Source: a virus. Taken from it: a stretch of 45,208 nt of DNA. Positions within the stretch are counted from its first letter, which is position 1; each line of letters starts with the position of its first letter. Below, piece after piece: positions 1 through 43,897 of this stretch. The notes under the pieces are model-generated. The model saw only the letters and a program-made list of their open reading frames with translations, did no database searches and was not told the origin of the DNA. The translations under genes and the position numbers were made by a program. Location of the stretch: positions 1 through 45,208 of the IMG/VR virus record IMGVR_UViG_3300024346_000133. One strand, 5' to 3'.

Positions 1-2740
1 CACCTGTATCACCTTTAGCACCGTTAGCACCAGAAGTACCAGATGTACCTGCAGCACCTTGAGCACCTTGAGCACCTGTATCACCTTTAGCACCATTAGC
101 ACCTGAAGTACCAGATGTACCTGCAGCTCCTTGAGCACCTTGTGCACCTGTATCACCTTTAGCACCGTTAGCACCAGATGAACCTGATGAACCTGAAGTA
201 CCAGATGTACCTGCAGCACCTTGAGCACCCTGTGCACCTTGTGCACCTGTAGCACCTTTAGCACCGTTTACACCAGATGAACCTGATGAACCTGAAGTAC
301 CTGCAGCACCTTGAGCGCCTTGAGCACCTGTATCACCTTTAGCACCGTTAGCACCAGAAGTACCAGATGTACCTGCAGCACCTTGAGCACCTTGAGCACC
401 TGTATCACCTTTAGCACCATTAGCACCTGAAGTACCAGATGTACCTGCAGCGCCTTGAGCACCTTGTGCACCTGTATCACCTTTAGCACCGTTAGCACCA
501 GAACTACCAGATGTACCTGCAGCACCTTGTGCGCCTTGTGCACCTGTATCACCTTTAGCACCGTTTACACCAGATGAACCTGATGAACCTGAAGTACCAG
601 ATGTACCTGCAGCACCTTGAGCGCCTTGTGCACCTTGAGCACCTGTATCACCTTTAGCACCGTTTACACCAGATGAACCTGATGAACCTGAAGTACCAGA
701 TGTACCTGCAGCACCTTGAGCACCTGTATCACCTTTAGCACCATTAGCACCTGAAGTACCAGATGTACCTGCAGCGCCTTGAGCACCTTGTGCACCTGTA
801 TCACCTTTAGCACCGTTAGCACCAGAAGTACCAGATGTACCTGCAGCACCTTGAGCGCCTTGTGCACCTTGAGCACCTGTATCACCTTTAGCACCGTTTA
901 CACCAGATGAACCTGATGAACCTGAAGTACCAGATGTACCTGCAGCGCCTTGAGCACCTTGTGCACCTGTATCACCTTTAGCACCGTTTACACCTGAAGT
1001 ACCGTCAGTACCTGAAGAACCATTAGTACCAGAAGTACCGTCAGTGCCAGAAGTACCAGCTGTACCAGATGAACCTGAAGAACCAGATGAACCTGAAGAA
1101 CCATCAGTACCATCAGTACCTGATGAACCATGAGTACCATCTACACCTGATGTACCAGAGTATCCAGAAGTACCGTCAGTACCAGAAGTACCAGCTGTAC
1201 CAGATGAACCTGAAGAACCAGATGAACCTGAAGAACCAGATGAACCTGATGAACCTGATGAACCTGAAGTACCAGAAGTACCAGAAGTACCTGCTGAACC
1301 TGAAGAACCGTTTGAACCTGAAGAACCAGATGAACCTGAAGTACCAGCTGTACCAGAAGTACCAGCTGTACCAGATGAACCTGAAGAACCATTTGAACCA
1401 GATGAACCTGAAGTACCTGCTGTACCAGAAGTACCTGCTGTACCAGATGAACCTGATGAACCATTTGAACCAGATGAACCAGATGAACCTGAAGTACCAG
1501 CTGTACCAGAAGTACCAGCTGTACCAGATGAACCTGATGAACCTGATGAACCTGAAGAACCTGAAGAACCGTCAGTACCAGAAGTACCGTCAGTACCTGA
1601 AGAACCTGAAGAACCTGAAGAACCGTCAGTACCAGAAGTACCGTCAGTACCAGAAGTACCCGCTGTACCAGATGAACCAGATGAGCCAGATGAACCTGAA
1701 GAACCGTCTGTACCATCAGTACCTGAAGAACCGTGTGTACCATCTACACCTGAAGTACCAGAGTATCCAGATGTACCATCAGTACCAGAAGTACCAGAAG
1801 TACCAGCTGAACCTGATGAACCTGAAGTGCCTGAAGTACCAGATGAACCAGATGAACCTGATGAACCTGAAGTACCTGCTGTACCAGAAGTACCGGAAGA
1901 ACCAGATGAACCAGATGAACCTGAAGTACCAGAAGTACCAGATGAACCTGAAGAACCGTTTGAACCAGATGAACCAGATGAACCTGATGAACCTGAAGTA
2001 CCTGAAGTACCAGCTGTACCAGAAGTACCTGCTGTACCAGAAGTACCAGATGAGCCAGATGAGCCTGATGAACCTGAAGTACCAGAAGTACCTGCTGTAC
2101 CAGAAGTACCAGATGAACCAGATGAACCCGATGAACCTGAAGTACCTGCTGTACCAGAAGTACCGGAAGAACCAGATGATCCAGATGAACCTGAAGTACC
2201 CGCTGTACCAGAAGTACCAGCTGTACCAGATGAACCTGAAGAACCTGATGAACCGTTTGTGCCATCAGTACCAGAAGTACCCGATGAACCTGAAGAGCCT
2301 GACGAGCCATTTGTACCGTCTGTGCCTGAAGAACCTGAAGAACCTGATGAACCGTCTGTACCATCAGTTCCGGCTGTGCCCGAAGTTCCTGCAGTGCCAG
2401 ACGAACCGGACGAACCGTCCGTACCGTCAGTGCCTGAAGAACCCGAAGATCCGTCCGTACCGTCTGTTCCTGAAGTGCCCGAAGAGCCTGAAGAACCAGA
2501 AGTACCAGATGAACCTGAAGAGCCAGATGAACCTGATGTTCCAGCAGTACCAGATGAGCCAGATGAACCAGATGAGCCAGAAGAACCTGAAGTGCCTGCT
2601 GTACCAGAAGTACCTGCAGTTCCAGAAGTTCCAGCTGTACCTGATGATCCGCTAGTACCGTCTGTTCCAGATGTGCCGTTAAAGCCGTCTACACCAGATG
2701 AACCTGAGGTACCAGTTGTTTTAATTAAAGGTATTGCCAT
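1..2740 (-). CDS. Giant collagen-like fibre protein, 3' end outside window
   Basis: The ATG at 2740 opens a frame that stays open for 913 codons to the window edge, so the C-terminus is missing. After about 10 unique residues ([10 protein letters not shown]) the whole protein is Gly-X-Y triplets. Residues about 10-580 are mostly Gly-Thr-Ser and Gly-Ser-Ser with some GTA, GTD and GTN. From about residue 580 (nucleotide 1000 downward) the pattern changes to [16 protein letters not shown]-type units in longer period repeats of about 24 residues. This is typical of collagen-like stalks of phage fibres, which form trimeric rods. It follows the 2772-3530 virion gene after a 31-nt gap, probably in one operon. 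The very high Ser/Thr content and nearby glycosyltransferases make glycosylation plausible (inference). The receptor-binding tip, if present, lies outside the window. Confidence 0.85.
11..1000 (-). repeat. Long-period collagen repeat array inside the fibre gene
   Basis: The segment is built from near-identical units of about 72-100 bp encoding blocks such as [19 protein letters not shown] separated by TSGTSG or SSGSSG spacers. Units differ by swaps such as GAN to GVN and by the number of GAQ triplets, as expected from unequal recombination. It is coding, not CRISPR. Confidence 0.8.
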
Positions 2741-2771: not shown

Positions 2772-3530
2772 TTAATCTAGTGCAGATTTAGAGTAAATAA
2801 TGTCAATATTATCAGTAGTTGATAGCTCGTAACCTGCAATGTTACCATTCCAGTAAAGCTCGTCACCTGCTTCAATATTAGCATTCAATTTAGCTGTTGC
2901 ACCACCGTCATTTGAAAAATAACAGTCCGAAGTTTTTACACCATCACCTTCAGATACACCTACACCGTTAACAATAATGTCAACCGCTGAATCCAAGAAT
3001 GGAGTGTATGTGATTGTAATGCCAGTTGGAGATGCGTCACCATTTGTATTTGCTGGTGAAAGATCTCTTTGATAAACTTCAACGCCTGTATCCACCGGTG
3101 CACCACCAACAGATGGTCTCCAAGGAAGTACATGTGCAGTCGTTTCAGTGATGGCTTGCATGATAGGATTACTATATGCATACGCGTCATTAACTGTGAA
3201 CTCTACAGGTACACCAGTACCTGAATCGTCTACTACGTAGAAAGCACCTGGAATAAGATTCCATGTTGGTACTGTAACTTTACCAACTTGAACACCGATA
3301 AATGTATCTGGTGAAGAAATCGATTCAATTACAATTCTACCTAGTGAGTCCTCAGTCGAAGCGTCGGCAAGGATCCATGTTGCACCGTCATAAGCAACTA
3401 CTTGACCAGCAGAAAATCCGTGTTCAACCTGTGTGAACGAAGATTTAAGCGAGCCAGAGGTGATCGCAGTAACAATAGCATCAAGAACGTCTTGCAAGCC
3501 CTCAATTTGTTTGATTTTGATCTGAGACAT
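2772..3530 (-). CDS. Virion fibre/adapter protein with duplicated C-terminal domain
   Basis: 252 aa. The N-terminus MSQIKIKQIEGLQDVLDAI resembles the start of the fibre at 6979-8925 (MAQIRSKQIADF), suggesting a shared attachment peptide. The C-terminal ~90 residues (about 165-252, with YTPF, VNGV, WNG, AGYEL, then a short Ile/Tyr-rich tail) match the C-terminus of the 9066-11021 protein, so this is a domain reused in the same particle. The middle is beta-rich. I infer a tail-fibre or baseplate-attached structural protein, although no exact T4 counterpart is recognised. It probably leads the operon that includes the giant collagen-like gene. A TATATATA stretch at 3583-3590 could be its promoter, 53 nt upstream. 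Confidence 0.6.
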   Translation of the reverse strand: MSQIKIKQIEGLQDVLDAIVTAITSGSLKSSFTQVEHGFSAGQVVAYDGATWILADASTEDSLGRIVIESISSPDTFIGVQVGKVTVPTWNLIPGAFYVVDDSGTGVPVEFTVNDAYAYSNPIMQAITETTAHVLPWRPSVGGAPVDTGVEVYQRDLSPANTNGDASPTGITITYTPFLDSAVDIIVNGVGVSEGDGVKTSDCYFSNDGGATAKLNANIEAGDELYWNGNIAGYELSTTDNIDIIYSKSALD

Positions 3531-3696: not shown

Positions 3697-4878
3697 ATGC
3701 CATCTAATCCATCTAAAGCTATAGAATTCAAGAGGATTCTAAGACAGTACGAATACTCGCTAGAAGATCTTAAGGACCTTAAGGACTTGGAGTCTCATAT
3801 TAAAAGTGAATTTGGAAGTGCTCTTGCAGCATTAGAACGACATGATCTTTTTGATCAGACACCTAAAATCCCAGAAGAATCGGATGTTGAGACTATTATA
3901 CCTGATACTGAAAGGGACCCTGCCTTTAAAAAGCTTTTTAGGAAGGTTGTTGTTAGGTGTCATCCTGATAAACTAAGTGATAAGCTTACTATTTTACAGA
4001 AGGCCGAAAAGAAGGACCTTTACGAAAAAGCAATCAAGGCTAATGATGATTATAATTGGGCAATGCTTATTATTGTTGCGATAAAATTAGAGTTAGAACT
4101 TCCTGAAGAATATTATGAGTATATTGAAAACCTTAAAAGTGAATCTGTTAAGGTGTCTGAAGAGATTGAAACTATTCAAGGCTCTGTTGCATGGAAGTGG
4201 TATCACACTGAAAGTGTAGAAGAAAGAGCTCAAATTCTAAAATTATACATTGCTTTTATAGAAAAGCAAAAGTATGAGAACGTCAAAGAATCTAAACTCA
4301 TACTTGGTTTGGGTCATCCAAGAACCGGAACTGGTTATACTTCTAATCTTTTAAAGACTTGGGGTTTGGATGTAGGCCATGAAAAAATGGGAGCTGATGG
4401 GATTATTGCATGGCAACTTGTTAGTGATATAGAACCTAGGATCTTTATGGAAGACTTTGACTCTTCTAGATATACTTATAAGTATCTTATTTATAATGTA
4501 AGAGATCCAAGGGGATCTATTCCTTCTATTGCATTAACTGAAAATGAAACTATAGGCTATCGTTTTAGAAGTCTTGGATTGTTTCAATCTTTTAGCCATG
4601 TTGAAAATGCTGTTAGATCTTTATTGGAATGGGATAAGATTATAAGATCTAAGAATCCTGACTTTGTTTATAGAATCGAAGATCAAGCAACTGAGCTTCA
4701 CAGATTTTTAACTTCTAAAAATATTGAAGTATCTGAATTTAAAGATAGTGATTTAAGAAATAAAAGGAAACACGGTGGTCTAGATAAAATCAAAGACGAT
4801 ATAATGTCTTTAAGTCCTGAACTTAAACAGGGTCTAGATGAATATTGTGAAAGGTATGGGTATCCTAAGATGTTTTAG
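3697..4878 (+). CDS. J-domain / sulfotransferase-like fusion protein
   Basis: 393 aa on the plus strand, against the flow of its neighbours. Residues about 75-145 look like a J domain: a basic helix FRKVVVRC, then the HPD motif at 89-91, then helices containing KAEKKDLYEKA and ANDDYNWAML. J domains bind and stimulate Hsp70 (DnaK). Residues about 200-390 resemble a P-loop sulfotransferase: a nucleotide-loop-like GHPRTGTGYT at 206-215 (5'-PAPS loop position) and RDPRGSIPS at 269-277 (3'-phosphate motif position). Sulfotransferases move sulfate from PAPS to sugars or proteins. It ends directly against the converging glycosyltransferase at 4879, so the two stop codons abut. The substrate is unknown; host surface glycan or glycosylated phage fibres are inferences. 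The J-domain call is fairly firm, the sulfotransferase call moderate. Confidence 0.65.
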   Translation: MPSNPSKAIEFKRILRQYEYSLEDLKDLKDLESHIKSEFGSALAALERHDLFDQTPKIPEESDVETIIPDTERDPAFKKLFRKVVVRCHPDKLSDKLTILQKAEKKDLYEKAIKANDDYNWAMLIIVAIKLELELPEEYYEYIENLKSESVKVSEEIETIQGSVAWKWYHTESVEERAQILKLYIAFIEKQKYENVKESKLILGLGHPRTGTGYTSNLLKTWGLDVGHEKMGADGIIAWQLVSDIEPRIFMEDFDSSRYTYKYLIYNVRDPRGSIPSIALTENETIGYRFRSLGLFQSFSHVENAVRSLLEWDKIIRSKNPDFVYRIEDQATELHRFLTSKNIEVSEFKDSDLRNKRKHGGLDKIKDDIMSLSPELKQGLDEYCERYGYPKMF

Positions 4879-5670
4879 TTAATGGTCCCAAAGTTTTGAC
4901 CAATGACATCTTACATAATAATGTACTTGAATATGATCTAGATTAGATCTGTGATTCTTAATAGTATTATTTGCAAATTCAATATCCTCACTTGTTCCTT
5001 TTTCAGAAACATCGGACCATTTATGGTCAGGGAAACCTTTTTTATGCCACATAGCAACAGTTCCCATTGTTTTACCACCAACTGAGATCCATTCACTAGG
5101 AAGTCCTGGTATTTTAAAGATATCGCTTTCAATAGTTGCAACACTTTGCAACTTAGCAGGATCATCTTTAAAGCGTTCTCTTTGTAACTTTAAAATTCCC
5201 AAATAAGCAAAGTTTTCAATGATCCTGGTATTAAACACCATTTTAATCTTTCTTTCTTCTGGTCTATCTTCAGAAATTTTATCTGCAATAGAAAGTTGCC
5301 CTATCAAGCCATTAACTGCACTATTTAGAATAAAATCATCAGAGTCTACATAACCGATCCAATCACCAGTAGCCATTTCCACACCAACCTGTCTTGGATA
5401 GCCTCTATGAAATACAGCACCATCATTATTTTCATACATTCTATTTTCAGCAGGTTCGACAAACTTAAATTTAATTCTAGGTTCATGTGTAAAATTTAGC
5501 AAGTATTGTTCTTCTGTGATTTTACAACCGTCAGATACAATAATCAGTTCCCAATTAGGGTTTATTTGATCAATAAAGCTATTTACAACTCTATTAAACT
5601 TTTCAATAGGATTTGATCTTGCACCTGGATAATCACCAAGATACGATTGCATTACAAAAGAAAGCTTCAT
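4879..5670 (-). CDS. Family 2 (GT-A) glycosyltransferase
   Basis: 263 aa. The N-terminus has the GT-A Rossmann pattern: a beta strand KLSFVMQSY, then ELIIVSDG (residues 41-48), a donor-binding SDG typical of GT2 enzymes. The metal-binding DxD motif lies in YVDSDDF at 107-113, after GYPRQVGVEMATGDWIG. A later GTSEDIEFANN segment is at the usual place of the acceptor-side acidic motif. It transfers a sugar from a nucleotide-sugar donor; the acceptor is unknown. Its ATG overlaps the stop of the upstream DUF2827 gene by one base (TAATG), so the two are translationally coupled. It is the middle gene of a likely decoration island among fibre genes. Confidence 0.85.
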   Translation of the reverse strand: MKLSFVMQSYLGDYPGARSNPIEKFNRVVNSFIDQINPNWELIIVSDGCKITEEQYLLNFTHEPRIKFKFVEPAENRMYENNDGAVFHRGYPRQVGVEMATGDWIGYVDSDDFILNSAVNGLIGQLSIADKISEDRPEERKIKMVFNTRIIENFAYLGILKLQRERFKDDPAKLQSVATIESDIFKIPGLPSEWISVGGKTMGTVAMWHKKGFPDHKWSDVSEKGTSEDIEFANNTIKNHRSNLDHIQVHYYVRCHWSKLWDH

Positions 5671-6869
5671 TATCTATTATATAGGTTTGTTTTCCAGTCT
5701 AACTCCCAGCTCATTGACTTTTTAAGATCTTCATCAAACAAAGAATGTAAAAGCATTGTATACTCTTCTTGCAGTTCTTTATTTTCAGGTCTGTATCTAA
5801 AGATCTTTTCCATTGAATCTTTTTTATACTCTCTAATATTTTTATCATGGTTTTCAGCAGCATTAATAATTTGGTTTGCTGCATCGTCCATATTAAATCC
5901 CTCATAGTAGTAACCCAGATCTGCGATTAATTCAGCATTGTGAACTAATGGATATCCAAGGTATAGTGCATCTAAGTACAGATAGTTTAATGGATTTCCC
6001 CACTGGTGTGAAACTACGATATCCGTTCTTGATTCTAAATAGTGTACGATTGGGTATCTAGAAGTGAATTGAGCCTTACTATCTCTGACAATATCTAATT
6101 GATTCATCAAGGCCTTAAAAAGATTAATGTCTACAAGTTTATTAGTATTACTAGCATACATAAATGATATAAGATCTGGTCTCTTTCTATAAGCTTGTTC
6201 AGTTGCCAAAATACATGGCATTGAATACTTAACAATATTAATGTTAGGTTCAAACATAGAAATCCTTTTAGAAGGACCTTCATTATTATAATAAGGATCC
6301 TTAGTAGGATCTGCTTGAATTATTTTAATGTGTTCATCGATAAACATAGGGTCCCATACAAATGGAATTGCCCTTGGATCTTTTCTTAAAAGAATCTTAT
6401 AGTAATCGTGATTATTGAACTTTTGTTGTGGAACATACCATACATCATCAATTGCATGATCTAGTTTCATTAAAATGTTGTGTCCCTCTCTTGATTGAAA
6501 CAGAATATCTTCCATATCGTTTACATAGTTATTACCACATTGGTATGTAATAACTTTTAGATTTGGATTCATACCTTTCCATAAAAGAGTTTCTGATTCA
6601 TTAGATGCTGTCTGTAAATGGATAAGGACATCTAGATTTTTAGGGTAATCAGGCTCTTCAAAAATGTTTACAGTTTTATATTCGTTAACATCCCATGGAA
6701 ACTTCTCCATGGCATTATTTTTCTGGAAGTTTAATATAGAGACTTCATGACCTGCAAGTTTTAATAACTTGGCTAGCATCATACCATTTTGTCTGATTCC
6801 ATTTGAAAAAACAGAATGACCAGTTTCTAGAACTACAGTGATACCTACTTTATAAGAATCTTTTCTCAT
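5670..6869 (-). CDS. DUF2827-type glycosyltransferase (GT-B-like)
   Basis: 399 aa. The start, VGITVVLETGHSVFSNGIRQ with NGMMLAKLLKLAGHEVSIL, is the hallmark of the DUF2827 family, which is thought to be GT-B glycosyltransferases found in capsule/LPS loci and phages. The C-terminal half has SHQWGNPLNYLYLDALYLG followed by PLVHNAELI, matching the nucleotide-sugar-binding half of GT-B enzymes. Donor and acceptor are unknown. It is coupled to the GT2 gene by a TAATG overlap. A strong terminator at 6914-6941 sits upstream, so it probably has its own promoter between 6870 and 6914, where I see no clear motif. Confidence 0.75.
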   Translation of the reverse strand: MRKDSYKVGITVVLETGHSVFSNGIRQNGMMLAKLLKLAGHEVSILNFQKNNAMEKFPWDVNEYKTVNIFEEPDYPKNLDVLIHLQTASNESETLLWKGMNPNLKVITYQCGNNYVNDMEDILFQSREGHNILMKLDHAIDDVWYVPQQKFNNHDYYKILLRKDPRAIPFVWDPMFIDEHIKIIQADPTKDPYYNNEGPSKRISMFEPNINIVKYSMPCILATEQAYRKRPDLISFMYASNTNKLVDINLFKALMNQLDIVRDSKAQFTSRYPIVHYLESRTDIVVSHQWGNPLNYLYLDALYLGYPLVHNAELIADLGYYYEGFNMDDAANQIINAAENHDKNIREYKKDSMEKIFRYRPENKELQEEYTMLLHSLFDEDLKKSMSWELDWKTNLYNR

Positions 6870-6978: not shown

Positions 6979-8925
6979 TTATTGAACTGCAACACCAAGA
7001 ACAATAACCTTATCAGTCTCTTCTAGATCGTAAACGATGCTTAGATCGAAATTTTGGCCGTCAATCATAGTGTATTTAACTCTTAGACCGTTAACGTAGA
7101 TTTCTAGGTCTTGATTACCACCGTAGAACATGTTAGCAGTCGTGATTTGTGTACCACCTTCAACACCAGTTACTAGTTCTTCTGCCATCCAGTCAGCAGC
7201 CATTCTATTGTCAATTTCAATAGAAAGTGCTGTAGATAGAGTAGCGTCAGCAGTAGTTCTGTTAACAACTTCTGTAGATAGGTTGTTAGAAAGAACAACG
7301 TCAGCAGCAGCTCTTGCAGCAACTTCTGTAGATAGGTTGTTAGAAAGAACAACGTCAGCAGCAGCTCTGATAGAAGCCTCTGTAGATAGTTCTGTAGAAG
7401 CGTGAAGCTTAACAGACTGGTCACCAGAAATGTGGTGATCGTGCTCTAGGTTGATTGCAGAGATTCTTGCAGAAATTTCAGCAGAAAGAGCTGTATCTAG
7501 AGAAGTATCGCCAGAGATTCTAGAAGAAATTTCAACAGAAAGTGCGTTTGTTAGAGATAGATCGCTAGAGATTCTTGCAGACTCTTCTGCAGAAACTTCA
7601 GCATTGTGCTCAGCTAGAACAGCTATGATAGAAGCCTCTAGGTCACCGTCAACTGATTGGAATGCAGAAACGATCTCAGTTAGAGAATCTAGAGCTTCTG
7701 GATCGATGTTAGAGATAACGAACTCAATCTTCGTGTTTAGAGAAGCATCAGCAGAGATTCTTGCAGATGTCTCAGCAGAAACAAGGCCGTCAGCGTAAAG
7801 CTTAACAGATGCATCACCAGAAAGTCTTGCAGAAGCTTCTGAAGAGATTTCTGTAGAAGCGTAAAGCTTAACAGAAGCATCACCAGAAAGTCTGTTAACA
7901 ACTTCTGTAGATAGGTTGTTAGAAAGAACAACGTCAGCAGCAGCTCTGATAGAAGCCTCTGTAGATAGTTCTGTAGAAGCGTGAAGCTTAACAGACGCGT
8001 CACCAGAAACGTGGTGATCGTGCTCTAGGTTGATTGCAGAGATTCTTGCAGATGTCTCAACAGAAACTGCATTTGTTAGAGATAGATCGCCAGAGATTCT
8101 TGCAGCAGCCTCTGTAGAGATACCGTTAGATGCCCAAGTCTTAACTGAAGCGTCGCCGCTTGTTCTGTTAGTAACTTCTGTAGATAGGTTGTTAGAAAGA
8201 ACAACGTCAGCAGCAGCTCTTGCAGCAACTTCTGTAGATAGGTTGTTAGAAAGAACAACGTCAGCAGCAGCTCTGATAGAAGCCTCTGTAGATAGTTCTG
8301 TAGAAGCGTAAAGCTTAACAGACGCGTCACCAGAAACGTGGTGATCGTGCTCTAGGTTGATTGCAGAGATTCTTGCAGAAATTTCAGCAGAAAGTGCGTT
8401 TGTTAGAGATAGATCGCCAGAGATTCTTGCAGATGTCTCAAAAGAAACTTCAGCGTTGTGCTCTGAAAGAACAGCTAGGATAGAAGCCTCTAGATCACCG
8501 TCAACAGACTGGAATGCAGAAACGATCTCAGTTAGAGAATCAAGAGCAGCTGGATCAACGTTAGCGATGATGAAATCTACTTTAGTATTTAGAGAATTAG
8601 CACCAGCGATTCTTGCAGCAACTTCTGTAGATAGGTTGTTAGAAAGAACAACGTCAGCAGCAGCTCTGATAGAAGCCTCTGTAGATAGTTCTGTAGAAGC
8701 GTAAAGCTTAACAGAAGCATCACCAGAAAGTCTGTTAACAACTTCTGTAGACATTTCTGTAGAAGCGTAAAGCTTAACAGAATTATCAGCAGAAACTCTT
8801 TGAGAAGTTTCAGTAGATACTAGGTTGTAGATGTCTACTGCAGGTGCGATTGCAGCGCTGTCAACTGTTGTCCAGTCTAGGATTGCTGCGAAATCCGCGA
8901 TTTGTTTAGAACGAATTTGTGCCAT
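6979..8925 (-). CDS. Repetitive tail-fibre protein with HDHH motifs
   Basis: 648 aa. Short N-terminal peptide MAQIRSKQIADFAAILDW, as in other fibre proteins here. Residues about 35-580 consist of repeated units such as SGDASVKLYASTELSTEAS and IRAAADVVLSNNLSTEV, which look like a long alternating coil/loop trimer shaft. Two larger modules (about residues 108-143 and 395-431) contain VDP.ALDSLTEIVSAFQ, a motif common in marine phage fibres. Three INLEHDHH(V/I)SGD segments lie at about residues 191, 300 and 495. The last ~70 residues (ENMF-like YGGNQDLEIYVNGLRV, ending VLGVAVQ) form a small beta cap. It has a strong terminator downstream and a possible late promoter at 8987-8994. Confidence 0.75.
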   Translation of the reverse strand: MAQIRSKQIADFAAILDWTTVDSAAIAPAVDIYNLVSTETSQRVSADNSVKLYASTEMSTEVVNRLSGDASVKLYASTELSTEASIRAAADVVLSNNLSTEVAARIAGANSLNTKVDFIIANVDPAALDSLTEIVSAFQSVDGDLEASILAVLSEHNAEVSFETSARISGDLSLTNALSAEISARISAINLEHDHHVSGDASVKLYASTELSTEASIRAAADVVLSNNLSTEVAARAAADVVLSNNLSTEVTNRTSGDASVKTWASNGISTEAAARISGDLSLTNAVSVETSARISAINLEHDHHVSGDASVKLHASTELSTEASIRAAADVVLSNNLSTEVVNRLSGDASVKLYASTEISSEASARLSGDASVKLYADGLVSAETSARISADASLNTKIEFVISNIDPEALDSLTEIVSAFQSVDGDLEASIIAVLAEHNAEVSAEESARISSDLSLTNALSVEISSRISGDTSLDTALSAEISARISAINLEHDHHISGDQSVKLHASTELSTEASIRAAADVVLSNNLSTEVAARAAADVVLSNNLSTEVVNRTTADATLSTALSIEIDNRMAADWMAEELVTGVEGGTQITTANMFYGGNQDLEIYVNGLRVKYTMIDGQNFDLSIVYDLEETDKVIVLGVAVQ

Positions 8926-8986: not shown

Positions 8987-8994
8987 TATATATC
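8987..8994 (-). promoter_or_regulatory. Possible late promoter (GATATATA)
   Basis: GATATATA on the minus strand, 62 nt upstream of the fibre start at 8925. It has the same sequence as the recurrent late motif but is further from the ATG than usual. Confidence 0.35.
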
Positions 8995-11023: not shown

Positions 11024-14002
11024 TTAGAATATAAACATTAGGTAAGCGTGGGCGTTTCTAGAAGAAGCACCGAGACCTGCTGAGTTACCGTATTTAATAA
11101 AGTTTTGTCTAACATCCAACGTTATTGTAGATGTAAATGCACCGAAGAAGTTAGGAACAAACTGCCCAGAACCCTGGTTTGTAAAGTTAGCAGATACTGA
11201 ATCAATCTTACAATCTGCAGCATCTACTCTATATGGATGCACTTCATACTTATATGTTGAAGGTTGCCATGCCATAACTTGGATACCAGTTGGTGGGTGA
11301 GATTCACTAAATTGAACCGTAATAGAATAGATTGCATTAGCAGTATCTACGTTAACACCTGTGATTTGTGCGTTAGCTGTTAGAAATCCATCAGCTGTTA
11401 CAAATAAGTGTGAACCCGTACCTGCAATCAGGTGTTCAGAAGAGTCATAGTTTAGTCTTAGTAGGTACTTGTTAGAACCCGAGCCCGATCCACCCGTTGG
11501 TGTGACCCATGTTGTGTTGTATGGATTTGAATCAACTTTTGAAAGAACCTGGCCTGAAGTACCACCTGAAGGGATACCAATACCATTAGCACCTGAAGTA
11601 CCAGAAGTTCCATTGACACCAGAAGTACCTGATGTACCTGCAGCACCTGCTTCACCATTAATACCTGAACTACCTGATGTACCTGCAGTACCATTAACGC
11701 CAGAAGTACCAGATGTACCTGCAGCACCTGCTTCACCATTAACTCCAGATGAACCAGATGAACCATCAGCACCTTGAGCACCTTGAGCACCATTAACGCC
11801 AGAAGTACCAGATGTACCTGCAGCACCTGCTTCACCATTAACTCCAGATGAACCAGATGAACCATCAGCACCTTGAGCACCTTGAGCACCATTAATGCCA
11901 GAAGTACCAGATGTACCTGCAGCACCTGCTTCACCATTAACTCCAGATGAACCAGATGAACCATCAGCACCTTGAGCACCTTGAGCACCATTAACGCCAG
12001 AAGTACCAGATGTACCTGCAGCACCTGCTTCACCATTAACTCCAGATGAACCAGATGAACCATCAGCACCTTGAGCACCTTGAGCACCATTAACACCAGA
12101 AGTACCCGATGTACCTGCAGCACCTGCTTCACCATTAACTCCAGATGAACCAGATGAACCATCAGCACCTTGAGCACCTTGAGCACCTTGAGCACCTGCG
12201 ATACCAGAAGTACCAGATGTACCTGCAGCACCTGCTTCACCATTAACTCCAGATGAACCAGAAGTACCCGATGTACCATCAATACCATTAATACCTGAAG
12301 TACCATCAGCGCCATTTACGCCAGAAGAACCTGATGTTCCAGAAGCACCAGCAGGACCTTGAATAGAACCGCCATCAACCCACTGAGAACCATCCCATAT
12401 GTATAGGACATCAGTATCATCTGATAGATAAGCATCTCCAATTTGTTGTCCAGATGTTGGAAGTGATGCAGAAGTTGCAATAGCACCTTTAAACGTGATA
12501 CCCATACCTGGAGCACCATCTACACCAGAAGTACCCGATGTACCATCTACACCAGTAATACCAGAAGTACCTGATGTACCGTCGATACCGTTAATACCAG
12601 AAGTACCTGATGTACCGTCGATACCGTTAATACCAGAAGTACCATCAGCGCCATTTACGCCAGAAGTACCTGATGTACCGTCGATACCGTTAATACCAGA
12701 AGTACCATCAGCGCCATTTACGCCAGAAGTACCTGATGTACCGTCGATACCGTTAATACCAGAAGTACCATCAGCGCCATTTACACCAGAAGTACCATCA
12801 GCACCATTAATACCCGAAGTGCCATCAGCACCATCAGTGCCATTTACACCAGAAGTTCCTGAAGTACCGTCAATACCATTTGCACCATCAATACCATCAG
12901 CGCCATTTACGCCAGAAGTTCCTGAAGTACCGTCAATACCATTTGCACCATCAATACCACTAATGCCTGAAGTACCCGAAGTACCATCAATACCATTTAA
13001 ACCAGATGTACCATCAGCACCAGAAGTACCTGAAGTACCTACTGCTCCTGGAATACCATCAATACCTGAAGTACCTGATGTACCAGCAACACCAGAACCT
13101 GTAGCTCCGCCATATGCATCAATATTATATGTGATTGTCTGTCCTACTTCAAAAGTATAAGAATTATTAACAGGTGAATATGAATTATCTTCATAAGTTA
13201 CTAAAACTTCAGTATAATCATTATCGTTATCATCGCCTCCGCCAACTTCGGCATTAATTCTATTGTATCCTGTAATCTCATAGATTGCATACTCATTAGG
13301 TGCATTAACATTAACAACTGTAATAGTTGCACCGATATTAGAAGCACCAGCATCTCTCTTTGATAGGTAATTTTCTAGAAGTACGTTTCTTACGTTATTT
13401 TGATCTAGATTGTAGAACTTAATAGAAGTTACTTGTGTTGGATCTGCAGAGTCAAACGTAACAGACTTAAGTGCTGGATAAACACCATTAATAGCTGAAA
13501 CATTATACTTAATATAAGGAGATGAACCAGAACCATTGCCCGATGTAGAGCCTGGATTAGTTACATTTCCACCACCGCTAGGACCAGAGATCGAAGAACC
13601 TGCTACAGATCCAATTTCCAGTTGTGGAAGAACATATGTTTTTGCACTTGGGTAGTAGTTAGAGTATGTAATAGTTACTTGCGCGTAAAGTTTTCCATTC
13701 GCAAGGTTATTAGACTGTGCTGCTGTAATATCAAAGGAAATGTGACCTTGTGTATTTGAAGCTGGTTGTCCAAGTGTTAGGTAGTCAGTGACACCAGAGA
13801 TAACTGGGTTTGAGTACTGATACATCTTCTGACCAAATGAATTATAAAGAGATACTGTAATGGAATTAGCATCTGCGGCATTCAGTTGATTATTGATATA
13901 ATCTTTGTATAAAATAAGTTCGACATTCTTTGGTGTTCCTGCTGTAACTGTGACATTAGAGCCGATAAACGCCATTATATCGTCTTTTGCAACGTAAGGC
14001 AT
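11024..14002 (-). CDS. Large collagen-like tail-fibre protein
   Basis: 992 aa in four parts. Residues 1-140 (MPYVAKDDIMAFIGSNVTV and the following beta-rich part) and 165-290 (ALKSVTFDSADPTQVTSIKF, then YTFEVGQTITYNI) are two globular attachment domains. Residues about 294-811 are a Gly-X-Y collagen-like stalk, interrupted at about 495-551 by a small domain with GDAYLSDDTDVLYIWDG, like a carbohydrate-binding or beta cap insert. Residues 811-992 are a C-terminal globular domain, probably the trimerisation or receptor-binding head. The stalk contains five tandem 99-bp repeats. A GATATATA late promoter sits 29 nt upstream. I infer a receptor-binding or accessory fibre. Confidence 0.8.
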   Translation of the reverse strand: MPYVAKDDIMAFIGSNVTVTAGTPKNVELILYKDYINNQLNAADANSITVSLYNSFGQKMYQYSNPVISGVTDYLTLGQPASNTQGHISFDITAAQSNNLANGKLYAQVTITYSNYYPSAKTYVLPQLEIGSVAGSSISGPSGGGNVTNPGSTSGNGSGSSPYIKYNVSAINGVYPALKSVTFDSADPTQVTSIKFYNLDQNNVRNVLLENYLSKRDAGASNIGATITVVNVNAPNEYAIYEITGYNRINAEVGGGDDNDNDYTEVLVTYEDNSYSPVNNSYTFEVGQTITYNIDAYGGATGSGVAGTSGTSGIDGIPGAVGTSGTSGADGTSGLNGIDGTSGTSGISGIDGANGIDGTSGTSGVNGADGIDGANGIDGTSGTSGVNGTDGADGTSGINGADGTSGVNGADGTSGINGIDGTSGTSGVNGADGTSGINGIDGTSGTSGVNGADGTSGINGIDGTSGTSGINGIDGTSGTSGITGVDGTSGTSGVDGAPGMGITFKGAIATSASLPTSGQQIGDAYLSDDTDVLYIWDGSQWVDGGSIQGPAGASGTSGSSGVNGADGTSGINGIDGTSGTSGSSGVNGEAGAAGTSGTSGIAGAQGAQGAQGADGSSGSSGVNGEAGAAGTSGTSGVNGAQGAQGADGSSGSSGVNGEAGAAGTSGTSGVNGAQGAQGADGSSGSSGVNGEAGAAGTSGTSGINGAQGAQGADGSSGSSGVNGEAGAAGTSGTSGVNGAQGAQGADGSSGSSGVNGEAGAAGTSGTSGVNGTAGTSGSSGINGEAGAAGTSGTSGVNGTSGTSGANGIGIPSGGTSGQVLSKVDSNPYNTTWVTPTGGSGSGSNKYLLRLNYDSSEHLIAGTGSHLFVTADGFLTANAQITGVNVDTANAIYSITVQFSESHPPTGIQVMAWQPSTYKYEVHPYRVDAADCKIDSVSANFTNQGSGQFVPNFFGAFTSTITLDVRQNFIKYGNSAGLGASSRNAHAYLMFIF
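11700..12194 (-). repeat. Five 99-bp tandem repeats in the collagen stalk
   Basis: Five nearly identical 99-bp units encode the 33-residue block [33 protein letters not shown]. Only a few silent changes separate units, so the array is recent or kept uniform by recombination. It stays in frame. A 63-bp unit (GADGTSGINGIDG, TSGTSGVN) recurs about three times near 12590-12780. Confidence 0.85.
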
Positions 14003-14030: not shown

Positions 14031-14038
14031 TATATATC
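14031..14038 (-). promoter_or_regulatory. Late-promoter motif of the collagen-like fibre operon
   Basis: GATATATAAA on the minus strand, 29 nt upstream of the ATG at 14002 and just past the stop of the preceding gene (14043). Confidence 0.6.
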
Positions 14039-23461: not shown

Positions 23462-23708
23462 AAAGCTTTGGCATCTTCATAGAAGGCATGCTAGGTGATT
23501 TTAAGCCGCTTCCTAATCCTGACATGCTAGGCATCTTAGGCATCTGTGGTTGCTTGAATGAGTTTTTCTGATCTTGGAAATCGTCTTCTTGCTGCTTTTG
23601 ACCTTTTTGTTGTTCTTTGAGCATATCTGAGAGTTCTTTAACGATGTAGAAGTACTCATAGTATGGGAGTGCTTCAACCTCGCTAGGTTGAATTCTCAGA
23701 TGATGCAT
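23460..23708 (-). CDS. Tail-assembly chaperone-like small protein (second ORF)
   Basis: 82 aa if started at the ATG 23708. The start MHHLRIQPSEVEALPYYEYF followed by IVKELSDMLKEQ is typical of small phage tail-assembly chaperones. The tail is QKGQKQQEDD then a Met/Pro-rich end (MPKMPSMSG). The frame is open further back to 23822, overlapping the first ORF by 98 nt in the +1 frame. It probably pairs with 23725-24669 as a G/GT-like system just upstream of the tape measure. Start uncertain: it may be made by its own ATG, by a frameshift fusion, or both. Confidence 0.6.
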   Translation of the reverse strand: MHHLRIQPSEVEALPYYEYFYIVKELSDMLKEQQKGQKQQEDDFQDQKNSFKQPQMPKMPSMSGLGSGLKSPSMPSMKMPKL

Positions 23709-23724
23709 CAAATAAAACTTAGTC

Positions 23725-23730
23725 TTAAAG
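23725..23730 (-). other. Candidate +1 frameshift site (CTT TAA)
   Basis: The first chaperone ORF ends ...GAA CTT CTT TAA G. A +1 slip of the P-site CTT to TTT would read AAG ACT AAG TTT TAT TTG ATG and enter the 23460 ORF. It is the same CUU-stop logic as the prfB frameshift. No Shine-Dalgarno-like stimulator is seen. Confidence 0.4.
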
Positions 23731-24669
23731 AAGTTCTGAAGAGAGATCTGAAATAATGAAAAGACTCTTGATTCCACCTGGAAAGTTAAGCGGTACGAGG
23801 ACCTCCTCACCCTCGTGATCAACTTTAAGTTCTGGCTTAACTCCGATCTTCATTTGTTCAGCAAGTCTATAAACGACCATGTATTTCTTTTCAGTCCAAC
23901 CCTGGAATTCAATCTCTTTGTCAAAGATAGCTTTAGTATTGAAACCTCTCCAGTCTTGTGTAATGTATGGTAGAATTTGGATGAAAGACTGATCCCAGTT
24001 TTTACGCTCTCTTTGACGAGTTTGCATAAACTTAGTGATTTCTTCCATAACACCAATTGTAGGTGGTGCCATTCTAACTTCACCTGCTGATTTAGTTTGG
24101 ATTAAGAAAGCTCTTGCTTCCTCATCATAGTATGATTCGATTTGATCAGAGATCTTCTCAACATCAAGGTGCTCACTCTTAAGTTCAACCTTAAATGGCT
24201 TACCATTTGAATCGCTTGCTTCGATCATTAGCTTGTTCTCAGTTTCTGGGAACGTAAGATCTCTAATAGCTAGAAGGATAAAGATTCTATCTTCTTCAAG
24301 GAAATCCTTGTAAGAAAGAACTCTTGAACCCACTGTGAATTTAGCACACGCCTTAACGATTGAGTTTAGTTTCTCTTCAATATCGACAATGTTTTGTTCA
24401 TCAATTGTTGAAAAGTGTCTGATTTCAGCAACTCTAGCCGATCTGATTTTTAGTTCAGCTCCGATTGGATAAAACCTTCCTTCAGATGGTAGATTCTCAA
24501 CATTCATGCTAATCCATCCTAGATGGTGATCCGAAGATTCAACATCATTTAGGAATCTTGACATAGTTGCCTTTCCTAGACCTTGAGACTTAATCTCTTC
24601 CGCCATTGGATTAGAAGTCTCCTTTTCTTCGACCATTTGTTTATAGTCGTCTTGATTGTAATCGCTCAT
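23725..24669 (-). CDS. gp26-like baseplate hub / tail-assembly chaperone
   Basis: 314 aa. Residues about 50-130 resemble T4 gp26-type proteins: ENLPSEGRFYPIGAELKI, then EEKLNSIVKACAKF, then SYKDFLEEDRIFILLAIRDL, a pattern of a hub or chaperone family that also includes long tail-chaperone ORFs. The rest is charged and mixed. T4 gp26 is 208 aa, so this is longer. It sits between the tube gene and the tape measure, where chaperone ORFs lie, and its end overlaps the next ORF in another frame. The start is 3 nt after the ribbon-helix-helix gene stop. Baseplate-hub identity is moderate. Confidence 0.6.
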   Translation of the reverse strand: MSDYNQDDYKQMVEEKETSNPMAEEIKSQGLGKATMSRFLNDVESSDHHLGWISMNVENLPSEGRFYPIGAELKIRSARVAEIRHFSTIDEQNIVDIEEKLNSIVKACAKFTVGSRVLSYKDFLEEDRIFILLAIRDLTFPETENKLMIEASDSNGKPFKVELKSEHLDVEKISDQIESYYDEEARAFLIQTKSAGEVRMAPPTIGVMEEITKFMQTRQRERKNWDQSFIQILPYITQDWRGFNTKAIFDKEIEFQGWTEKKYMVVYRLAEQMKIGVKPELKVDHEGEEVLVPLNFPGGIKSLFIISDLSSELL

Positions 24670-27930: not shown

Positions 27931-27938
27931 TATATATC
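27931..27938 (-). promoter_or_regulatory. Late-promoter motif before sheath gene
   Basis: GATATATACA on the minus strand, 33 nt before the ATG at 27898, just after the acetyltransferase stop. Confidence 0.6.
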
Positions 27939-27944
27939 AGCCTT

Positions 27945-28586
27945 TTAAGATAACTCTTTGATTTTTTGGATGAAATCCTTAACGTCGTGTGAAAACAAAA
28001 GGTCTTTGTTTTCTAAAAGTATACTTTCTTCTACATCCCACCATTTTATGTCTAAAAGATCTTTAATAGTTTCATCATCGAATCTTTTTTTGATTGGTTT
28101 TGCTGGTGAACCACCTATTATTGTATAGGGCTCAACGTCTTTTGTTACAATTGCATCTGTTGCTATAATTGCTCCATGGCCAATAGTAACCCCTGACATA
28201 ATAGTTGCTGCATGTCCAATCCAAACATCGTTACCTATATTTATGTCTCCATTTGAAAATATAAAATCAGATGGATCATATTCAGTGTCAAATGGTAAAT
28301 ATGTTGTAACGTTTTTATAGTCATGATTTCCGCTTAGCATAAACTTACAACCCCCTGCAATTGAAACATATTTACCTATATTGATCTTATACTTATCTAA
28401 GTGGAATAATTCAGTGTATATCTTAGAGTTAGTGCTTTTAATTATCTCATAGTCTCCAGTGGCCCTAGCCCTAAGAACACTATTTATAAACCCGTCTTCT
28501 TGTTTTTTGGTTATTTGAACATTTACAATACTAGGCTTGTTATTAAGGGCTAGCATCATCTGTTGATTAAGATCTAGTGTTATCAT
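27945..28586 (-). CDS. CatB-like O-acetyltransferase (left-handed beta-helix)
   Basis: 213 aa. The C-terminal part shows hexapeptide repeats INIGND VWIGHA ATIMSG VTIGHG AIIATD AIVTKD (residues about 115-150), then the conserved GGSPAKPIKKRF, as in xenobiotic/CatB-like and maltose acetyltransferases. The SGNHDY motif (85-90) has the catalytic His88. Such enzymes acetylate hydroxyls of sugars or small molecules using acetyl-CoA. It starts 3 nt after the large-terminase stop, so it is part of the packaging operon, but it has no T4 counterpart. Target could be LPS or capsule sugar of the host or fibre-linked glycan (inference). Horizontal gain from a bacterium is likely. Confidence 0.85.
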   Translation of the reverse strand: MITLDLNQQMMLALNNKPSIVNVQITKKQEDGFINSVLRARATGDYEIIKSTNSKIYTELFHLDKYKINIGKYVSIAGGCKFMLSGNHDYKNVTTYLPFDTEYDPSDFIFSNGDINIGNDVWIGHAATIMSGVTIGHGAIIATDAIVTKDVEPYTIIGGSPAKPIKKRFDDETIKDLLDIKWWDVEESILLENKDLLFSHDVKDFIQKIKELS

Positions 28587-37620: not shown

Positions 37621-38124
37621 ATGGCATACTCAAAGAAATACCCTAAGATAGAATACAACCGCGGAGTTCGTGGGAGATTCGGCGTGTCTTTTAAGACCCT
37701 GTTAAAAGGACAGAAGAGATTCATCATGGATCACCATAATATCAAGGAGTTGATTAATGATGAACAGGCACTGAAGGCCATCATGGGTATTTACCGTGGA
37801 ACTAATGACAGTTCAAAGGTTAAACTGTTCTATGACTGGACTGAAGGTGACCTTAAACTAAAGTCAGATCTAAATGAGTCTTACTCAATGGTCGACTGGA
37901 AGTGTGCAATATCTGGAAGACCTATTAAAAGTAAGATGGGCGAATTCGACGCCAAGAACTTTGTACACCCTGAATACTGGGAGTCTTTAGAGGGGTCAAT
38001 CAATCAAAATGTACTTAAGTCTTCACTTGAGTTTCGTCTAAAATGTCAAGAGCTCCTCCTGAATCAACAGAAGGAGCTCATGAAAGTGTTTAAAAAGAAC
38101 GCTAATCCTCGAAAGGAATTATAG
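37621..38124 (+). CDS. Hypothetical plus-strand protein
   Basis: 167 aa, not recognised. Start 37621 (MAYSKKYPKIEYNRGVRGRF) keeps a basic N-terminus; a shorter start at Met36 (37726) is possible. It is charged, with a DWTEGDLKLKSDLNESYSMV segment, a VDWKCAISGRPIKS loop and a helical tail (LKCQELLLNQQKELMKVF). It is one of only two plus-strand genes and shares a divergent intergenic region with gp44. Its stop codon overlaps the stop of the minus-strand gene at 38119 by 6 nt. Confidence 0.6.
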   Translation: MAYSKKYPKIEYNRGVRGRFGVSFKTLLKGQKRFIMDHHNIKELINDEQALKAIMGIYRGTNDSSKVKLFYDWTEGDLKLKSDLNESYSMVDWKCAISGRPIKSKMGEFDAKNFVHPEYWESLEGSINQNVLKSSLEFRLKCQELLLNQQKELMKVFKKNANPRKEL

Positions 38125-43889: not shown

Positions 43890-43897
43890 TATATATC
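43890..43897 (-). promoter_or_regulatory. Late-promoter motif before protease-scaffold gene
   Basis: GATATATAAA on the minus strand, 22 nt before the ATG at 43868. Confidence 0.6.

Follow-up and report, generated by a model that had tools for sequence, protein, structure and literature searches.

We identified a phage gene that encodes, in one open frame of 393 amino acids, a J-type region followed by a PAPS-sulfotransferase fold (residues 196-393). The gene (positions 3697-4878, plus strand; hereafter J-ST) lies in a viral sequence of 45,208 nucleotides (IMG/VR record IMGVR_UViG_3300024346_000133, positions 1 to 45,208), which we call the window. Both parts are of known kinds; the joined domain architecture is new. 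The original prediction had described one 393-aa protein with an HPD tripeptide at residues 89-91 that unites a J domain and a sulfotransferase-like enzyme; the open reading frame matches exactly, and family profiles together with AF2 and VIA bear out the union of the two modules. Computation established that both halves are present, that they are conserved as a single protein, and how the surrounding locus is laid out. We assign a probability of about 0.45 to the reading that this is a fused J-type co-chaperone and PAPS-dependent sulfotransferase, which would recruit host DnaK, use host PAPS and modify the phage's own fibres. The features discussed are collected in Table 1.

Table 1. Features of the J-ST gene and its surroundings; positions are those of the window.
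Feature	Position	Strand	Remarks
J-ST fusion gene, 393 aa	3697..4878	+	same architecture in L030, L031, L032, L006, L074; truncated in L073
N-terminal long helix of J module, aa 5-45	3709..3831	+	AF2 model
J core: helix II (75-88), HPD loop, helix III (99-118)	3919..4050	+	profile matches, AF2 model
HPD tripeptide, aa 89-91	3961..3969	+	invariant, 27/27 family members
J-module C-terminal helices, aa 121-194	4057..4278	+	conserved with standalone J proteins
Sulfotransferase-fold domain, aa 196-393	4282..4875	+	AF2 model, VIA, family alignment
Candidate 5'-phosphosulfate-binding P-loop GHPRTGTGYT (R209, T212)	4312..4341	+	R, G, T invariant in 19 members
E229, candidate catalytic base	4381..4383	+	invariant; follows H228; assigned by position only
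Candidate 3'-phosphate-binding motif RDPRGSIPS (R269, S277)	4501..4527	+	R invariant, S nearly so
Collagen-like fibre, 301 Gly-X-Y triplets	2..2740	-	cut by contig end
Fibre-locus protein, N-terminal IK.KQI motif	2772..3530	-	divergent from J-ST
Glycosyltransferase family 2 (GT2)	4879..5670	-	PF00535 E 2.3e-7; counterparts L006, L008, L035, L073
DUF2827 protein, probably a glycosyltransferase	5670..6869	-	PF10933 E 7.8e-93; most recurrent neighbour, cluster of 24
Fibre-type repeat protein, N-terminal IR.KQI motif	6979..8925	-
Second collagen-like fibre	11024..14002	-	matches PHROG tail fibre families, lowest E 6.8e-72
GATATATA, example copies	8987-8994, 14031-14038, 27931-27938, 43890-43897	-	many directly precede structural genes

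Searches of Pfam and NCBIfam did not identify the J-ST protein of the window. Searching the phage collection, we found for its residues 201-392 a counterpart in Phage C48C1, a standalone protein of 196 aa (OQ984149; 42% identity, E 8e-34), which, like its marine-phage relatives, has no J module and starts where the enzyme domain of J-ST starts. Residues 51-185 gave a weak match to standalone J-like proteins of metagenomic phages of 635-642 kb, which end at the border where the C48C1 protein begins, so that the window protein corresponds to two whole proteins placed end to end. A scan of viral contigs with the single protein returned no relatives, but alignment-guided scans of the viral contigs yielded 25 sulfotransferase-type and 36 J-type loci. 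Both halves occur in one frame of about 389-415 aa in four IMG/VR contigs, with 37-41% identity to the window protein. Two further copies came from genome contigs: a full-length one (L074), whose contig was assigned to a Bifidobacterium breve MAG and is probably phage-like, misbinned sequence, and a truncated one (L073) from a Kapaibacterium MAG, which is 67% identical and has the same GT2-DUF2827 neighbours as the window. With the window, the four IMG/VR contigs and the one MAG contig there are six full-length fused loci and one truncated, and the fusion architecture is thus conserved across independent phages. A frameshift or assembly artefact was ruled out by the continuous ORFs, the independent contigs and the identical domain border.

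Each half also occurs alone in other phages, as had been anticipated, and the expectation that the fusion would prove unusual held as well: among 50,697 phage records we found half matches only, the matches in BFVD were separate J and sulfotransferase entries with no fusion, and no J-sulfotransferase fusion was found in the literature searched; failure to find it in these three sources is no proof of absence. In the J tree one label change suffices for the fused proteins (74% of bootstrap trees) with modest branch support (79/25), which is consistent with a single fusion event. The J-only and ST-only phages checked never carried the other half as a separate gene in the same record. This leaves an old partnership of two genes unsupported and indicates that the two functions are separable; the coupling to a sulfotransferase therefore looks like a later addition to a J protein already present in the fibre locus.

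By sequence, the N-terminal half is J-type. The DnaJ model PF00226 matches 24 of the 27 J-family members at E up to 0.1 (best E 1.8e-5) and reaches E 0.0017 on the window record (3913-3981), which is below the curated cut-off; a Pfam check of the kind first proposed therefore succeeds for most relatives and misses the window protein itself. The family profile retrieved the J domains of Sec63, DNAJB9 and auxilin from PDB (E 7e-6 to 7e-4), hhalign against five bacterial and phage DnaJ J domains gave an alignment spanning helix II, HPD and helix III (P 5.5e-6, probability 86), and viral J proteins were among the J matches in BFVD. In the predicted structure of the module (pLDDT 86) helices 75-88 and 99-118 flank the HPD loop, and a J fold around HPD is likely on this model. 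The lack of a J fold around HPD had been named as a finding that would refute the prediction, and it is countered in part: the arrangement helix II-HPD-helix III is predicted as claimed, but canonical helix I is not, since the window protein has no YxxLG-type helix, and residues about 46-69 are predicted to be unstructured. Foldseek searches of PDB with the J-module model gave no significant match, and VIA listed small helical bundles only (Z up to 7.3), with no solved J domain among them.

The C-terminal half was identified mostly by fold. With residues 196-393 of the full-length AF2 model (pLDDT 84), human TPST1/2 came top in VIA (PDB 5wri, 3ap3; Z 10.3, rmsd 3.9-4.0, 169-176 residues aligned), and all 50 top entries listed were sulfotransferases. 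A different P-loop fold had been named as the finding that would speak against the assignment; a kinase-type P-loop is ruled out by these entries. Foldseek E-values against PDB were not significant for the full-length model. The fold shared with TPST1/2 extends over the whole enzyme domain at 14-15% identity, and the J-ST domain is shorter, with no membrane anchor noticed. Across 19 relatives the motif GHPRTGT is conserved, as is R(D/N/H)P together with a Ser at position R+8, and the positions of the 5'-phosphosulfate-binding Arg, the Glu and the 3'-phosphate-binding motif fit TPST1/2 by spacing. The catalytic residues of TPST1 are R79, E100, K159 and S286 (PMC5562738). R209 would coincide with R79 if the start of the VIA alignment (196 to 66) is extended gap-free, and E229 lies 20 residues after R209, as compared with 21 from R79 to E100; counterparts could be fitted for these two residues only, not for K159 or S286. 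No Pfam or NCBIfam sulfotransferase model exceeded its cut-off for the window protein, so that the family HMM check proposed earlier fails at the level of models, while the predicted fold is of the sulfotransferase type and both PAPS motifs are conserved. Pfam's Sulfotransfer_3 barely detects the family (best E 0.055, 3 of 19 relatives), and hhalign against two Methylococcaceae sulfotransferases aligned the P-loop only, with probability 4.6. On its modelled fold and its motifs, the enzyme half appears to be a divergent branch, and hence we call it sulfotransferase-like.

The weak Pfam signal, and the fact that no genome checked has the two halves as separate genes, would also suit a chance joining of unrelated activities that was then retained, or an enzyme half whose sulfotransferase fold only binds a substrate. 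We regard this as improbable, since both active-site sets are conserved among fused proteins that share about 40% identity, which argues that both are in use.

The window contains genes for a tail sheath, a major head protein and a T4-type terminase, and is, judging from its genes, part of a T4-like phage. Among isolated phages, those closest to it in the terminase infect Tenacibaculum, Flavobacterium and, in one case, Sphingomonas; the host is probably a member of Bacteroidota. The J-ST gene had been placed on an unusual strand, which is correct insofar as nearly all other window genes are on the minus strand, but it is not alone there: a second plausible plus-strand gene (37621-38124, 167 aa, no PHROG match) was found. 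J-ST is inverted amid minus-strand genes, with the fibre-locus protein and a collagen-like fibre to its left and GT2, DUF2827 and more fibre genes to its right. The four fused IMG/VR contigs likewise have the inverted gene with collagen-like fibre genes on one side and sugar-transfer genes on the other, and the sugar enzymes vary among them (hexapeptide transferase, PLOD-type glycosyltransferase, HtrL/YibB, pyruvyl transferase). The L074 copy is flanked by fibre-type and glycosyltransferase genes. The five nearest J-only loci (L034-L037 and L041, some of them near-identical) share this fibre-locus plan but lack the enzyme half, and J is separated from DUF2827 by two additional genes in L034 and L037. 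A hexapeptide acyltransferase-like gene was also seen in an unusual place of the window, between the terminase and tail sheath genes (27945-28586, minus strand); L005 and L007 have relatives of it within their fibre islands.

Other enzymes of these loci may also act on fibres. A 2OG-Fe(II) oxygenase (PF13640) was found in three records, G002 (L067:178-756, minus strand), L037 (521-1171, minus strand) and G003 (23574-23846, minus strand), lying in G002 and L037 one to a few genes away from a collagen fibre; in J or J-ST phages with collagen-like fibres these oxygenases are possible fibre hydroxylases. In G002 the J-ST gene is adjoined by a gene with the glycosyltransferase domain of PLOD, procollagen lysyl hydroxylase (L067:9176-10057, minus strand; PF25342 E 7.3e-12, read from L007). 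The fibres of G002 are the Pro- and Lys-richest that we saw, and Gly-X-Y stalks elsewhere are for the most part rich in Ser/Thr and poor in Lys and Pro; in these very few cases, the modifying enzymes appear to match fibre composition. Gly-X-Y stalks near the J-ST gene have only 0-2 Tyr, which makes stalk tyrosine an unlikely acceptor of sulfate.

We infer DnaK binding, catalysis, the substrate and the reason for the coupling as follows. DnaK, the Hsp70 of the host, would be recruited by the J module with its long N-terminal helix, helix II-HPD-helix III and further helices, and the sulfotransferase end would take sulfate from host-made PAPS. We found no HSP70 and no APS kinase in the fused phages, some of whose contigs are fragments; host DnaK would thus be used, and PAPS would come from the host. 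The most likely substrate would be the tail fibres of the phage itself, which are long and largely collagen-like, or else sugars added to them by the neighbouring glycosyltransferases, since the locus supports the fibre more than anything else does. The earlier suggestion of a link to fibres is thereby strengthened by synteny with collagen-like fibres and glycosyltransferases, the target itself being read from this setting. DnaK may hold the fibre chain open, or aid its folding, during modification, in the way that modification of procollagen precedes the closure of its triple helix. In a more specific and tentative form, host Hsp70 would be brought to nascent collagen-like fibres, which would be sulfated, directly or via sugars, before triple-helix closure, within a movable fibre-modification island that also comprises oxygenases and glycosyltransferases. 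Against a fibre target stand the ST-only phages, in which the gene is not beside collagen-like fibres, the separability of the halves, and a missing upstream promoter motif (see below).

Mimivirus glucosylates its own collagen-like proteins, and its collagen lysyl hydroxylase/glucosyltransferase L230 is a precedent for a virus modifying such proteins (PMC4691112); it differs from J-ST in its enzymes, in belonging to a eukaryotic virus and in having no J domain described. J-domain proteins have usually diversified through client-binding or targeting parts, and a J domain joined to a sulfate-transferring enzyme would tie folding directly to chemical modification. If the tail fibre is the target, J-ST would represent, in a bacterial virus, an equivalent of procollagen processing and could change the understanding of phage host-range proteins.

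The surroundings of the enzyme relatives bear on the kind of acceptor. Among standalone forms, the L011 group adjoins a DXD glycosyltransferase and the C48C1 group lies near fibre-like genes, and in a Methylococcaceae MAG the same sulfotransferase family is likewise fused, to a GT25 glycosyltransferase instead of a J module (L075:777-2246). Glycan sulfation is therefore at least as likely as protein sulfation. Such neighbours also speak for the preferred reading, which includes sugars on the fibres. Alternatively, the glycans might belong to the host surface: O-antigen or capsule sugars would be sulfated in concert with the phage glycosyltransferases, thereby blocking superinfection, and the J part would localise the enzyme or draw DnaK for the phage's benefit. 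For pelagimyophages, it has been proposed that the glycosyltransferases of the fibre region act on the O-chain of the host and not on the virion (PMC7029224). The best viral structural match in BFVD, a Megaviridae "capsular polysaccharide synthesis protein" (27% identity), points in the same direction, as do the glycosyltransferases beside or fused with the enzyme relatives. Envelope glycans are usually completed at or beyond the membrane, however, and neither a membrane anchor nor an export signal was noticed when the J-ST sequence was inspected by eye, which speaks against remodelling of the host surface. A J module is moreover unexpected for LPS modification, and the collagen fibre, the 2OG oxygenase and the PLOD-type glycosyltransferase suggest protein modification; on balance we consider host-surface remodelling somewhat unlikely.

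The motif GATATATA occurs 13 times in the window, always on the minus strand (2.1 copies expected; none of 100 shuffles reached 13), and is likely to be a phage promoter element. The T4-type late promoter TATAAATA was not enriched in the window (5 seen, 3.5 expected), nor was ACTAAATA. The exact GATATATA is not present upstream of J-ST, and the timing of its expression may thus differ from that of the fibres. This would agree with a role like that of Rki (gp057w) of the T4-related phage RB43, an early J protein that binds host DnaK, stabilises sigma32 and helps growth (PMC3486835): an active J module would redirect host DnaK, and the sulfotransferase would be cargo or act on a host protein. 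Rki resembles J-ST in its J region with HPD, and in RB16 and KP15 its homologues form in-frame fusions with the downstream gene, so that phage J fusions have precedent. Subversion of DnaK is nevertheless unlikely in our judgement, because the J family recurs in fibre loci of divergent phages and a general DnaK decoy would not need fibre loci. For the preferred reading, modification of the phage's own fibres, Rki still provides a precedent for a phage J protein that binds DnaK. The J domain of Rki is N-terminal, whereas in J-ST a long helix and an acidic linker come first and no canonical helix I is seen; J-ST also differs from Rki in having a sulfotransferase as its fusion partner.

Standalone phage J proteins (A0A8D9CF77 of an uncultured marine phage; L034-L065) are similar to the J half of J-ST in length, helices and HPD, and most end at the helices that correspond to window residues 121-194. 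They lack an enzyme domain, unlike J-ST, and the nearest ones occupy the same fibre-locus slot; same-slot relatives with or without the sulfotransferase half thus offer a compact test system. In addition to the fusion, two of the J-ST phages have a gene for a canonical DnaJ/CbpA-like protein, about 270 aa long (L081 and L082; G002:143580-143759 and G004:1299-1478).
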